Below are positions 45,439 through 55,741 of a stretch of 64,000 nucleotides of DNA, in pieces. This stretch comes from Polynucleobacter sp. es-MAR-4 (lineage in GTDB: Bacteria; Pseudomonadota; Gammaproteobacteria; Burkholderiales; Burkholderiaceae), in contig NZ_JACVPF010000001.1 in assembly GCF_018882055.1 (NCBI RefSeq), positions 1,116,001-1,180,000 on the forward strand, in the 5' to 3' direction. Position 1 is the stretch's first letter, and the number at the start of each line of letters is the position of its first letter. The notes beneath the pieces are model-generated. The model saw only the letters and a program-made list of their open reading frames with translations, had not been told where the DNA came from and made no database searches. The position numbers and the translations under genes were made by a program.

Positions 45439-46884
45439 TTAATAACGGTAGTGGTCAGCCTTGTATGGGCCTTCCTTCGTTACGCCAATGTAAGAAGCTT
45501 GCTGATCTGACAATACAGTTAACTGTGCATTCAATGTCTTGAGCTGCAAACGAGCAACCTTCTCATCTAAATGCTTAGGCAAGGTGTAAACACCGACTGG
45601 GTATTTATCTGTGCCAACTGCATTCCACAATTCGATCTGTGCAATCACTTGGTTCGCAAATGAAGAGCTCATGACATAAGATGGGTGTCCTGTACCGCAA
45701 CCCAAGTTAACTAAGCGGCCCTTAGCCAAGATGATGATGCGCTTCTCAGGATTGCCATTAGCTGCCGGGAAAATCACGTGATCTACTTGTGGCTTGATTT
45801 CTTCCCACTTGTATTTTTCGATACCAGCAACATCAATCTCGTTATCGAAGTGGCCAATGTTACAAACAATGGCTTGATTCTTCATCTTCACCATATGGTC
45901 ATGCGTAATCACATGGTAGTTACCTGTTGCAGAAACAAAGATGTCTGCCTTATCTGCGGCGTAATCCATTGTGACAACACGGTAGCCTTCCATGGCCGCT
46001 TGCAATGCGCAGATTGGATCTACTTCAGTAACCCAAACTTGAGCAGACAAAGCACGTAGAGCTTGAGCTGAACCTTTACCCACATCGCCGTAACCGCAAA
46101 CAACTGCAACCTTACCAGCAACCATGACGTCAGTAGCTCGCTTGATCGCATCAACTAAAGATTCACGGCAACCATAGAGGTTATCGAACTTGCTCTTAGT
46201 AACAGAGTCGTTCACATTAATTGCTGGGAACTTTAAGTCACCTTTTGCGAACATCTGATAGAGGCGATGTACACCGGTAGTAGTTTCTTCAGTTACGCCT
46301 TTTACTTTTTCTAGGCGTGTGGAGTACCAAGTTGGATCTTGCGCCAATTTCTTTTTAATGGCTGCGAACAAAATAGTTTCTTCTTCGCTAGTTGGGTGAT
46401 TCAAGCAAGCTTGATCTTTCTCAGCGCGTGCACCGAGGTGCAATAACAAAGTAGCATCGCCGCCGTCATCCAAAATCATGTTGGTGAAACCACCATCAGC
46501 CCACTCAAAAATACGGTGGGTGTAATCCCAATACTGCTCAAGGGTTTCACCCTTAATGGCAAACACTGGCGTGCCGTTAGCAGCAATTGCTGCAGCAGCG
46601 TGATCTTGTGTAGAGAAAATATTGCAAGATGCCCACTGCACTTCAGCGCCGAGAGCCTCTAAAGTCTCAATCAATACTGCAGTTTGAATGGTCATGTGCA
46701 ATGAGCCAGTAATACGTGCGCCACGCAATGGTTGCTGTGATGCGAACTCATCACGAATCGCGATCAGTCCTGGCATTTCAGTTTCAGCAATGGCGATTTC
46801 TTTACGACCAAAGTCAGCCAAAGAAATATCGGCAATAGCGCAACGGGTTGCTACAAAGTTGTTTAAATCGGAAACGGTACTCAT
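45439..46884 (-). CDS. ahcY: S-adenosylhomocysteinase
   Basis: Hydrolyses SAH to adenosine and homocysteine, relieving product inhibition of methyltransferases. The NAD-binding motif [14 protein letters not shown] is preceded by the substrate-binding region with [10 protein letters not shown] and [11 protein letters not shown]. The C-terminus ends [10 protein letters not shown], as in all SAHases. The start at 46884 (GGAG six bases upstream, [10 protein letters not shown]) gives 481 residues. An in-frame ATG at 46944 would begin inside the riboswitch leader. The 5' leader holds the SAH aptamer. Confidence 0.96.
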
Positions 46885-46952
46885 GAATGCTCCAGCTAAA
46901 TACGATCCAATGCTGGAGTAGAAACTCGCTAGCCATTGAATCATGGGTTAGC

Positions 46953-47056
46953 GAGCGCAGTTGCAATTAGCAAACTCTGGGGTTACCTAGGAGTCCACTC
47001 CCTTCAAGCCTGGGGAAACGCTGGTTCTCAGCATTCCTTGCAACGCTCCTTGAAGG
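46953..47056 (-). promoter_or_regulatory. SAH riboswitch in the ahcY leader
   Basis: On the minus strand P1 forms between CCTTCAAG (47056-47049) and CTTGAAGG (47008-47001), eight perfect pairs. The first strand runs straight into GAGCGTTGCAA, the conserved SAH-aptamer junction, and the second is preceded by CCCCAGG, matching the conserved CAGG-C of the family. The pseudoknot P4 can form between GAGCGT (47048-47043) and GCGCTC (46958-46953). The gene controlled is SAH hydrolase, the known target in betaproteobacteria. SAH binding is expected to turn ahcY on. Confidence 0.88.
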
Positions 47057-47086
47057 TATGACGAAATTGTAATCAATTTCGTCATA
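47057..47086. promoter_or_regulatory. Perfect 13-bp dyad overlapping the ahcY -10 region
   Basis: TATGACGAAATTG (47057-47069) and CAATTTCGTCATA (47074-47086) are exact reverse complements with a TAAT spacer. A good -10 hexamer, TACAAT (47071-47066, minus strand), lies at its centre, placing transcription start near 47059, right before the riboswitch P1. The -35 is poor (AGGCGA). The dyad looks like an operator for a dimeric regulator; a terminator is unlikely, as no T-tract follows on the minus strand. Confidence 0.6.
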
Positions 47087-47135: not shown

Positions 47136-48302
47136 TTACAAGCCAGCAGCTGCACGCAATGCAGGCGCCTTATCGCACTGTTCCCAAGTAAATTCTGGCT
47201 CTTCACGACCAAAGTGACCATAGGCAGCAGTCTTGCGATAAATCGGACGCAAGAGATTCAACATCTTGACGATGCCTTTTGGACGCAAGTCAAAGTGCTC
47301 AGATACCAGTTGCGCAATCTTCTCATCAGAGATCTTGCCGGTACCAAAGGTGCTCACCATCACTGAAGTTGGTTTAGCAACACCAATCGCGTAAGAAATC
47401 TGAATCAAGCACTTGCTTGCTAAACCAGCAGCAACTACGTTCTTCGCTACATAACGACCAGCATAGGCAGCAGAACGGTCAACCTTGGAAGGATCCTTAC
47501 CAGAGAACGCACCACCACCGTGAGGAGCCGCACCGCCATAGGTATCCACAATGATCTTGCGACCTGTCAGACCACAATCGCCTTGCGGGCCGCCGATAAC
47601 AAATCGACCTGTTGGGTTTACCAAGAAGTTAATCGCGCCTTTAATCAAGTGCTTCGGCAATACTGGTTTGATAATTTCTTCGATTACAGCTTCACGCAAT
47701 TTCTCGAGAGAAATTTCTTCATCATGTTGCGTAGAGAGAACTACTGTATCGATTGAGTCAGGCTTGCCATCCACATAGCGCAAGGTCACTTGTGACTTCG
47801 CATCAGGACGCAACCAATTCAAACGGCCATCACGACGCAATTGAGACTGACGCTCCACCAAACGGTGTGACAAGTGAATTGGCAAAGGCATGAGTTCTGC
47901 AGTTTCATCACAGGCGTAACCAAACATCAAACCTTGGTCACCAGCACCTTGATCTAAGCCGTCATCATGCGCCTTATCTACGCCCTGAGCGATGTCAGGA
48001 CTTTGCTTGTCATAAGCAACCAACACGGCACAACCTTTGTAATCAATACCGTAGTCAGTGTTGTCGTAACCAATTTCACGCAAAGTATTGCGAGCCACCT
48101 GAATGTAATCCACATTGGCGTTAGTTGTGATCTCACCAGCCAGAACCACCAAGCCGGTATTGCACAATGTTTCCGCCGCAACGCGCGCAGTTGGGTCCTG
48201 AGCCAGGATTGAATCCAAAATGGCATCAGAGATTTGGTCTGCTACTTTATCGGGGTGGCCTTCAGAAACTGATTCTGAGGTGAAGAAGTAATCATTTGCC
48301 AT
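47136..48302 (-). CDS. metK: S-adenosylmethionine synthetase
   Basis: Makes SAM from methionine and ATP. The substrate motifs [18 protein letters not shown] (10-27), the hexapeptide-type GAGDQG and the P-loop-like [16 protein letters not shown] are complete; the length is 388 residues. AAAGGA lies six to nine bases upstream of the ATG. It is preceded by a sigma-70 promoter and a SAM-II-like aptamer and is divergent from the lauroyl acyltransferase gene. Confidence 0.97.
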
Positions 48303-48370
48303 TGCATATTCCTTTAAAAATTAACACGATCTATGGGACAACTCGACGTGCCAGGAACTTCAACGGCGAC

Positions 48371-48420
48371 GCTTTAGCAGAATTTATGAATCGCCCTGCA
48401 AGTTGCCTTAACTCAGCGAT
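48371..48420 (-). promoter_or_regulatory. SAM-II-like riboswitch in the metK leader
   Basis: The minus strand shows, in order: CGCTGA, then GTTAAG, six bases, TGCA, nine bases closing P1, ATAAAT, three bases, GCTAAA. The SAM-II aptamer as I recall it (env87 metX example) reads CGCUGA, UUUAAC, five bases, UGCA, eight bases, AUAAAU, three bases, GCUAAA. The ligand-site residues are thus almost all kept. P1 pairs ATCGCT (48420-48415) with GGCGAT (48395-48390), and GCA/TGC pairs the loop with the 3' GCTAAA strand. The far end of the pseudoknot (P2a) is not obvious. A SAM-V-type relative is the alternative. Confidence 0.7.
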
Positions 48421-48426
48421 GCATGA

Positions 48427-48456
48427 ATTCTATCCGAAAAACGCCTTATTCATCAA
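48427..48456 (-). promoter_or_regulatory. metK promoter
   Basis: TTGATG (48456-48451), 18-bp spacer, TAGAAT (48432-48427) on the minus strand. The predicted start near 48420 coincides with the first base of the aptamer P1, so the leader is about 118 nt. The rest of the 203-bp metK-lpxL gap shows no gene. Confidence 0.65.
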
Positions 48457-48505
48457 GCGACACAGGAAATTTGGCCCTAGCGCTGGCATTGAATATCATT
48501 AGAGG

Positions 48506-54031: not shown

Positions 54032-54605
54032 GTCGAACGCGGAACAGCGCTAGGCTTCCAAAAAGATTGGGCATCAAAGTAACCTGACGACCCTCATGCA
54101 AGATGCATTGATCCAAAATTTGCAATCCTAAGCTCGAAGCCAGCTTTTCAAAATCAGCCACCGTGAGAACACGTACATTAGGCGTGTTGTACCACTGGTA
54201 TGGCAAGCTCTTAGAAACGGGCATGCGACCAAAGCCAACCGCTAGGCGATGAGACCAATGGCCAAAGTTTGGGAAAGAAACAATCGACTCCTTGCCAACC
54301 CGAACCACTTCACGCAGGATCTTTTCGGTTTCATGAATCGTTTGCAATGTCTGTGAGAGCACTACCGTATCAAAGCTGTTGTTCTCAAAGAGCGCTAAGC
54401 CCCCCTCAAGATTTTGTTGAATGACGTTCAAGCCCTTTTGCACGCAAGAAAGTACACGCGCATCATCAATCTCAACTCCGTAAGCATGGACGGGTTTTTT
54501 CTTTTGCAAATACTCTAGGAAGCTGCCATCACCACAACCGAGATCAAGCACTTCACTATTCGGCGCAATCCAGTTTGCTATTGCGGCAAAGTCTGCGCGT
54601 TTCAT
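54024..54605 (-). CDS. metW: MetW protein (methionine biosynthesis)
   Basis: A 193-residue class I methyltransferase-fold protein with the SAM-type loop [15 protein letters not shown] (19-33). MetW is encoded next to metX in many proteobacteria and is required with MetX for homoserine acylation; its own reaction is unclear. It overlaps metX by four bases and ampG by eight. Confidence 0.93.
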
Positions 54606-55741
54606 GATTTAGCCTCTAGCATTTGTTCGAAATAAGCACGAATCAGATTGTGATAACGCGGGTCATCCAACAAGAAGGCATCATGGCCATGGGGCGCATC
54701 AATCTCGGCATAACTCACTTCACTCTTATTGCTGAGCAAAGATTCGACAATCTCGCGACTGCGATTTGGCGGGAAGCGCCAATCAGTAGAGAAGCTCACG
54801 ACTAAAAACTTGGCTTGCACTTCAGCTAGGGCGCGGTTCAGACTGCCTTCATAGCGACGAGAAGGGTCAAAATAATCTAGCGCTCTGGTAATCAGCAAAT
54901 AGGTGTTGGCATCAAAGTAGGTAGAAAACTTATCACCTTGGTGACGCAAATAACTTTCAACCTCGAATTCAACATCAAAGCTAAAGCGGTAGTCTTGAGA
55001 TTCGCCTTGCGGTCTTTGCAGCTCGCGCCCAAACTTTTCCGCCATATCATCATCCGACAAATAAGTGATGTGGCCGACCATGCGCGCTAGTTTTAGGCCG
55101 CGCTTTGGTACGACGCCATGCTCATAGTAGTTGCCACCATGAAAATCTGGGTCAGACAAAATGGCATTACGTGCCACTTCATTAAATGCAATATTTTGTG
55201 CGCTGAGTTTCGGTGTAGATGCAATGACCAAGCAATGCGCAAGGCGTTTTGGAAACTGAATTGCCCAGGCTAATGCCTGCATACCACCCAAGCTTCCACC
55301 CATCACCGCAGCAAAACGTCGAATGCCCAACTTATCAGCCAAGCGTGCCTGGGTGTTTACCCAATCCTCAACCGTGATTACAGGGAAGTCTGCGCCATAA
55401 GGCTTGCTGGTGGCAGGATTAATACTCATTGGCCCAGTAGAGCCAAAGCAGGAGCCTAAGTTATTCACCCCAATCACAAAGAAGTGGTCGGTATCAACCG
55501 GCTTGCCCGGCCCAATCATGTTGTCCCACCAACCTATATCGCCTGCATCATCTGGGTTGGGTCCGGCAACATGGTGTGATGCATTTAGTGCATGACAAAC
55601 CAGCACAGCATTACTTTTATCGGCATTGAGTTTGCCGTAAGTTTCAATAACTAAATCGTAGCCCGATAGGATGGCGCCACTCTGCAAAGGCAAGGGCTCG
55701 GCAAAATGGATCGTGTTTCTAGAGAGGTGTAGCTCGCTCAT
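54602..55741 (-). CDS. metX: Homoserine O-acyltransferase (MetX family)
   Basis: An alpha/beta hydrolase-fold enzyme activating homoserine for methionine synthesis. The nucleophile S150 is in [10 protein letters not shown], the catalytic acid follows FSTDWRFPP, and the His lies in [10 protein letters not shown]. The length is 379 residues. MetX proteins paired with MetW in betaproteobacteria often use succinyl-CoA rather than acetyl-CoA, so the acyl donor is uncertain. It overlaps slmA and metW by four bases each. Confidence 0.94.

Follow-up and report, generated by a model that had tools for sequence, protein, structure and literature searches.

The metK transcript of the window, by which we mean the whole 64,000-nt stretch of DNA analysed here, probably starts with a SAM-II-type pseudoknot aptamer that is likely to bind SAM and is predicted to block metK translation when SAM is abundant; both the ligand and the direction of control are what we infer from sequence comparison. 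We regard this leader as a real, conserved riboswitch candidate of the SAM-II type and apparently as a new variant, which scores below the Rfam thresholds. An earlier sequence-only reading had suggested a SAM-II or SAM-V variant of betaproteobacteria whose expression platform differs. That proposal is supported by the pseudoknot, by a pocket complete bar one base, by covariation, by intermediates of Rfam grade and by a distant segment complementary to the Shine-Dalgarno (SD) sequence.

Architecture of the metK leader and its predicted pocket

The gene downstream of the leader, read as metK from the sequence, was confirmed as such by Pfam (Table 1). A good promoter with its predicted start on the first base of P1 had also been described, and this was borne out: TTGATG and TAGAAT, separated by 18 nt, gave 9/12 matches, TAGAAT ends at 48427, 6 nt before P1, and the predicted transcription start coincides with the first P1 base, at about 48420. 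A TATAAT-like box with at least 4 of 6 matching letters was present within 20 nt before P1 in all 49 leader representatives, as compared with 33.2 expected from shuffles, and it ended 6-8 nt before P1 in 43 of them.

On the minus strand the leader reads AUCGCU-GAGUUAA-GGCAACUUGCAG-GGCGAU-UCAUAAAUU-CUGCUAAAG-CGUCGCC. The linear SAM-II pattern with a 6-bp P1 was confirmed in this sequence, AUCGCU pairing with GGCGAU and the characteristic strands being GAGUUAA, CUUGCAG, AUAAAU and GCUAAAG. Past the pocket, P2 continues as CUU/AAG and then as a 3-bp P2a. The sequence-only reading was wrong in seeing no obvious P2a partner: GGC pairs with GUC, and relatives carry GRC/GUC at these positions. The aptamer consequently ends at 48368 and not at 48371, the leader element spanning 48420-48368. 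The distance of about 68 nt between aptamer and start codon holds when counted from 48371 to the metK ATG (48302); from the true end of the aptamer it is 65 nt.

Table 1. Features of the metK leader and its surroundings (window coordinates, except for the last row, which refers to other loci)
Feature	Position	Strand	Basis or remark
metK, S-adenosylmethionine synthetase, 388 aa	47136-48302	-	Pfam PF00438, PF02772, PF02773 above cut-off
Promoter TTGATG, 18-nt spacer, TAGAAT	48427-48456	-	promoter scan, 9/12 matches
P1 5' strand AUCGCU	48415-48420	-	4/6 P1 pairs with two-sided changes in A3
L1 third strand GAGUUAA	48408-48414	-	G8 A9 G10 U11 U12 A13 A14, SAM-II numbering
P2 5' strand GGC-AA-CUU-GCAG	48396-48407	-	pairs with 48380-48368
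P1 3' strand GGCGAU	48390-48395	-	
P2 3' strand CUGC-UA-AAG-C-GUC	48368-48380	-	with predicted pocket U44 (48376), A45-A47 (48375-48373)
P2a, GGC with GUC	48407-48405 with 48370-48368	-	3 bp; GRC/GUC in relatives
P3 hairpin CGU-C-GCC / GGC-ACG	48347-48371	-	genus alignment, 98.9% paired
Anti-SD segment GCCGUUGAAGUUCCU	48353-48367	-	predicted MFE pairing with SD, AUG, codon 2
GUUGUC	48337-48342	-	complementary to GRCAAC of P2; feature of the window's genus
SD AAAGGAA	48315-48309	-	
metK ATG	48302-48300	-	SD/start region including start of codon 2, 48298-48315
RF02424 matches	L347 1310-1445; L349 1587-1723; L360 1551-1734; L346 1639-1719		

Downstream of metK comes ahcY (45439-46944), and between the two genes lies an Rfam SAH riboswitch (46946-47057, minus strand, 47.6 bits), the sole match in the whole window at the gathering thresholds; these neighbouring SAM-cycle genes would thus each have an RNA sensor of their own. 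Elsewhere in the window, a metX-like gene (54602-55741, minus strand), behind which lies a metW-like frame, shares 4 nt with the end of an upstream regulator-like gene and, because of this overlap, lacks a leader.

All 13 SAM-II pocket bases that could be checked are present (G8, U11, U12, U20, U21, G22, C23, G42, C43, U44 and A45-A47), and they are invariant in the 44 rows of alignment A3, described below. In SAM-II, according to PMC3764141, the bases opposite the sulfonium are U11 and U21, the adenine is bound by U44 and the methionine end by A47, and G22 contacts SAM as well; SAM-V counterparts of these contacts are described in PMC6061858. The departure concerns position 10, reported as a completely conserved U in SAM-II (PMC3764141) and as G in the window. 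The counterpart of U10 in SAM-V, U8, hydrogen-bonds the adenine-binding U (PMC6061858). The G at the first position of the U-rich strand, listed as an oddity by the sequence-only reading, is real and turned out to be the rule among relatives: 250 of 255 cores have G10, four have U and one has A, metK leaders being among these exceptions, and G10 is found in 173 of 177 distinct cores. U10 was more frequent among order-level model hits. Some metK leaders differ little from the others apart from having U10 (L207, L350, L361) or A10 (L128), so position 10 is exchangeable.

These observations bear on whether a SAM-II-type aptamer might here sense another adenosyl compound, for example SAH. The base replaced by G10 is the one whose SAM-V counterpart hydrogen-bonds the adenine-binding U, and the SAH riboswitch at the next gene means that both metabolites may be sensed at this locus. 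However, the sulfonium-facing U11 and U21 and the contacts U44, A47 and G22 are all kept, position 10 can be exchanged among similar leaders, and metK is itself the SAM-making gene, so that we consider a changed ligand improbable and retain SAM as the probable one.

Conservation, covariation and relation to Rfam families

Conservation of the core in sister genomes, which the sequence-only reading had made a test of its proposal, was complete among the leaders obtained. metK was present in 98 of the 101 sampled genomes of the genus (own genome included), and the 90 leaders fetched out of these 98 all carried the element. They comprised 87 distinct sequences, every one with the core, and the full pattern could be parsed in 86, the remaining one failing on loop spacing alone. 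In one genome of a single contig (G033, 1.9 Mb) neither protein search nor Pfam detected metK, and there was no strong site for our wider model R2 (best 17.9 bits), which reflects either a genuine loss or an incomplete record. Two genomes (G008 and G039) have a second metK copy, with one strong R2 site each, at the main copy. The metK leader of G023 (L080) carries a 10-nt tandem duplication (GTTAAGACAA) within the L1/P2 strand, the remaining motif being kept.

Beyond the genus, two models were used, the E-values of which are rough. R1, built from 39 leaders (alignment A1), found a match at E <= 0.1 in 376 of the 398 genomes of the family, which represented 21 of 25 genera; among the 20 misses that were listed, 10 were genomes of 1.3 Mb or less. 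With R2 there were matches in 103 of the 160 genomes of the order (E <= 1e-3) and in 104 of the 276 of the class (E <= 0.01), and at the 23 order-level loci inspected metK was present in 16 and absent in seven. In the own genome the metK leader scored 68.8 bits with R2 as compared with 15.7 for the next best site. A second SAM-II-like site in this genome was rejected: the six other R2 matches at E <= 10 reached at most 15.7 bits, and the best of them lies in a coding frame, which we take from its translation to be cytochrome-b-like, and is therefore likely due to chance.

A pattern scan of named genomes yielded at least 120 loci. Among the matches listed, MetK was placed just downstream by script in 107 of 120 and on inspection in three more (L198, L220 and L253); L154, L183 and L246 were ambiguous or cut, L190 had no motif, and L160, L188, L209, L236, L243 and L257 precede other reading frames. 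The genera represented among 80 of these loci include Burkholderia, Paraburkholderia, Caballeronia, Trinickia, Pandoraea, Cupriavidus, Ralstonia, Limnobacter, Achromobacter, Bordetella, Advenella, Roseateles, Inhella, Dakarella, Dechloromonas, Accumulibacter, Polynucleobacter and others, which we take from general taxonomy to be betaproteobacteria. The Polynucleobacter leaders are nearly identical to that of the window, which likely comes from a freshwater bacterium of this genus. The metK-type motif was also seen in places where the following frame is not metK, namely before frames that, in our reading of their translations, are presumably MoxR-like AAA ATPases (L209, L257, L262, L265) and, in one case (L188), an HD-domain-like protein.

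Covariation in P1 and P2, whose search the sequence-only reading had recommended, was found. In A3, which consists of 44 hand-picked sequences, mostly from one order, the P1+P2 pseudoknot was paired in 98.9% of the cells, a value that fell to 31.9-46.7% when the strands were slid by 1-3 columns. Two-sided changes affected 7 of 16 pairs in 47 cells, and none of 500 shuffles reached as high a count; the number of further pair types was less telling, since 29 of 500 shuffles attained it. The outer P1 pairs occur as AU, UA, GC and UG (six cells unpaired) and as UA, GC, CG and AU, the third P2b pair as GC in 26, AU in 12, GU in five and another combination in one of the 44 sequences, and the fourth becomes AU in L359. 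P2a was paired in 99.2% of the cells; being almost invariant, it gains little from covariation. Two-sided changes were seen in 3 of the 23 pairs of the genus alignment A1 and, in A2 (53 sequences), in 2 of 15, in agreement with the direction of A3; the number of such pairs did not exceed that of shuffles, whereas the number of such cells did. The scan of named genomes had fixed the letters TTAA, CAACTTGC and GCGA, so the invariance of these letters in its rows stems partly from selection; genus leaders and model matches are free of it. The motif in metK leaders is more than chance, and covariation that spans many genera backs P1 and P2 of an H-type pseudoknot.

The relation to the families of Rfam is one of degree. 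In a narrow scan of the metK leader (161 nt), RF00521 (SAM-II) ranked first of 4227 families and in the correct register; nevertheless its score, 14.6 bits, fell below the gathering cut-off of 36, and the SAM-V model, the other one suggested by the sequence-only reading, gave no match at E <= 10 on 48300-48460. The leaders of 20 relatives had no Rfam match at E <= 10, and a search of the own genome with RF00521 found nothing. The cut-off of RF00521 was passed by three R2 sites elsewhere in the class (L271, L275 and L278) in a scan that took in 20 of the 29 loci at which R2 found such leaders; L275 and L278 precede metZ-like frames, and L270, in which the passing site is a tandem neighbour about 90 nt upstream of the R2 site, was left out of the series for that reason. 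Within the order, L322, located before a metX-like frame, passed with 36.2 bits (1501-1576), and R2 matched L322, L323 and L324 at E < 1e-3. Outside the class, R2 recovered eight of the 19 loci that match RF00521 strongly and that we presume to be alphaproteobacterial, but only weakly (13.3 bits and less). The intermediates thus grade from RF00521 into the metK type, and we file the element in the SAM-II/SAM-V superfamily and not as a member of RF00521.

Many R2 class leaders precede frames whose metZ identity is our reading of the translations. These metZ-like leaders carry GAUUUGA, and several have hairpins with U runs. SAM-II-type aptamers stand before metZ-like genes in L272-L274, L279, L281, L290 and similar loci, several of them with GCTTTAGC-type partners and U-rich hairpins, and these are likely terminator/antiterminator switches. 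Divergent SAM-II-like leaders (GAATTTAAC..CAACTTGC..AAGCTAAAGCG) were observed before metK in L283 and L286, from two genomes of about 2 Mb outside the order.

The same evidence speaks to the idea that this 5' leader binds a protein, or has a purely structural role, and has come to look like SAM-II through convergence. Its conserved bases could serve another purpose; yet 13 pocket positions coincide in the same order and with the same pseudoknot pairs, and intermediates attain the Rfam SAM-II cut-off, which makes convergence very improbable in our view.

Expression platform and proposed mode of control

Between the aptamer and the start codon, the window leader has a P3 hairpin and an anti-SD segment (Table 1). 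The predicted helix GCCGUUGAAGUUCCU/AGGAAUAUGCAAUGGC covers the SD, the AUG and codon 2, the anti-SD helix occupying 48313-48298. P3 overlaps P2a in the letters GU and the anti-SD helix in GCC, and competes with both, so that SAM binding would free the anti-SD segment. Under the proposed mechanism, SAM binding would close P2a (GRC/GUC), which would take the GU needed by the lower arm of P3 and, in the window's genus, also the GRCAAC needed by GUUGUC. P3 would then open, leaving the GCC-plus-loop segment free to pair with the SD, the AUG and the second codon, the OFF state. Without SAM, P3 would hold this segment and the SD would be open, the ON state.

The platform sequence is variable; across the set, its first 35 nt or so are complementary to the SD/start region. 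A relaxed pattern of the P3 3' strand was found in 40 of 49 representatives, as compared with 10.8 in shuffles, and a stricter one, which by its form cannot match the window's genus, in 26 of 49, with 3.9 expected; over 196 distinct platforms the stricter pattern occurred in 78. Of the 49 anti-SD segments, 22 fall within the loop or the 5' arm of P3, 16 overlap its 3' strand and two are downstream, the other nine leaders having no P3 strand. The longest perfect anti-SD match among these representatives was 13 nt (L128).

When the anti-SD segments were compared with their own and with re-paired partners, own partners were favoured with z of -3.4 to -4.2 in 23 representatives with a similarity ratio below 0.62. 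This is the fair set, as the values of -7 to -11 obtained with 49 and 68 representatives are inflated by the inclusion of related leaders. The own partner was among the top three for 8 of the 23 leaders, with a median rank of 7. For the window-type leader (L001) it ranked 18th of 23, which implies that this test backs the platform in general and not the window leader. The co-evolution of the anti-SD segment and the start region across lineages is supporting evidence for a putative translational switch.

Folding predictions gave a less clear picture. Equilibrium folding failed to reveal the switch: with the aptamer blocked, SD accessibility changed little, being lower in 9 of 49 leaders and higher in four. 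For the window leader a closed SD was predicted in both states. Forcing P3 in this leader opened just the GG of the SD (0.79-0.82 unpaired versus 0.01 when free), the next two A of the SD and the AUG remaining paired for the most part (0.12-0.29 unpaired), at a cost in stability of 5.4 kcal/mol. The folding of the window leader was no better than that of shuffles (z -0.22), 71 of 200 being at least as good.

This failure to see SD switching at equilibrium would suit a SAM-binding aptamer acting by transcription termination or RNA stability instead of SD masking, as would the description of most SAM-II elements as transcriptional (PMC6061858) and the hairpins with U runs in the related metZ-like leaders of the class. 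Such an output is nonetheless unlikely for metK, in our estimation: around the leader a single terminator-like site was detected (48459-48442), and it lies upstream of the predicted transcription start, and the anti-SD complementarity co-evolves across lineages. Masking of the SD is hence the output we prefer.

Two further pairings were considered. GUUGUC was present in all 89 genus leaders with a parsed platform, in none of 20 leaders from other genera and in 16 of 109 named loci; it was accordingly dropped as a general P2a partner in favour of GRC/GUC, and at the genus level GUUGUC-GRCAAC is a possible ligand-free alternative pairing. A conserved switch between GGCGA of P1 and UCGCC of the platform was rejected, given that P1 varies (UCGCC, GCGCC, CCGCC, ACGCC and UUGCC in that comparison) while the letters GCGUC(GCC) stay.

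Tandem leaders and comparison with known systems

In four loci (L346, L347, L349 and L360), a SAM-II-type aptamer with an intrinsic-terminator-like hairpin is followed by a metK-type aptamer. These tandem leaders extend from about 260 nt before the GCTAAA of the second aptamer to the next ORF, which is short (MYDC../MFDC..); in L347 and L360, the two loci checked, Pfam gave no hit for this ORF, and a MATE transporter comes next. At E <= 1, RF00521 sees the first aptamer alone in each tandem, with 23-34 bits. On the strand opposite to this first aptamer, RF02424 (Burkholderia sRNA Bp2_287) matches below its cut-off, and may be a misread SAM-II leader.

Taken more widely, we lean towards the view that the metK type represents a third SAM-II/SAM-V branch in betaproteobacteria: an order-wide SAM riboswitch and the missing metK regulator, combining an aptamer whose G10, GRCAAC and GCGUC are conserved with an anti-SD platform that evolves fast and can be swapped, standing second in tandems after terminator-type SAM-II and recruited by, for example, MATE-transporter operons. 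Leyn et al. (2014) looked for a regulator of metK in betaproteobacteria and reported none (PMC4239095). The metK leader is a strong candidate for that regulator, and its conservation across the order directly answers their question. A riboswitch of this kind would also allow annotation in many genomes for which Rfam reports nothing, would demonstrate that the SAM-II pocket tolerates a base other than U at position 10, and would offer a case in which one aptamer is kept and its anti-SD platform is rewritten lineage by lineage.

In the open literature we found no earlier description of the metK-type element, which may be in print elsewhere. SAM-II is given as most common in alpha-, beta- and gammaproteobacteria by Meyer et al. 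(2009; PMC2704228), and a survey of tandem riboswitches includes SAM-II/SAM-V as well as doublet SAM-II with mixed platforms (PMC9481103), which the tandem leaders described above resemble. For B. thailandensis, a table footnote in PMC8814607 cites unpublished data confirming that the metK 5'UTR is regulatory. Polynucleobacter intergenic regions were searched in PMC8632094, the main text of which does not mention metK.

Among known systems, the SAM/SAH riboswitch (RF01727) is also found in metK leaders, in Rhodobacterales (PMC2864571); the window leader differs from it in having no Rfam match to RF01727 at E <= 10. The metXZ RNA element of betaproteobacteria is likewise a pseudoknot-forming leader of methionine genes, but it is described for metX and metZ and with terminators (PMC4239095), unlike the metK leader. 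The fact that L322, a metX-like leader, is SAM-II at the Rfam cut-off suggests, without proving it, that the metXZ element is SAM-II. The alphaproteobacterial metA SAM-II of Sinorhizobium meliloti controls translation from a distant start codon, 74 nt downstream, as is predicted for the metK leader; there, however, the SD lies within the riboswitch (PMC9373788), whereas the metK leader has a separate predicted anti-SD segment and an ordinary SD.

With SAM-II itself (RF00521), the metK type shares the H-type pseudoknot, the GA-UU-A third strand, the UUGC and GCUAAA pocket strands, the position in the leader of a methionine/SAM gene and a promoter located a few nucleotides before P1 (PMC1273637). 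It differs in G10, in the nearly invariant GRCAAC and GCGUC(GCC), in a P2a of just 3 bp, in the presumed control of metK, in an SD about 50 nt downstream of the aptamer, in its variable anti-SD platform and in a score below the Rfam cut-off. SAM-V (metY, bhmT) has a SAM-II-like core and predicted translational control as well (PMC6061858), and its SD overlaps P2a, while in the metK leader the SD is far downstream of P2a. Some relatives (for example L126) share with SAM-V a hairpin-like insert between P1 and P2, and the metK type, as SAM-V does (PMC9481103), stands second in tandems after a terminator-type SAM-II.
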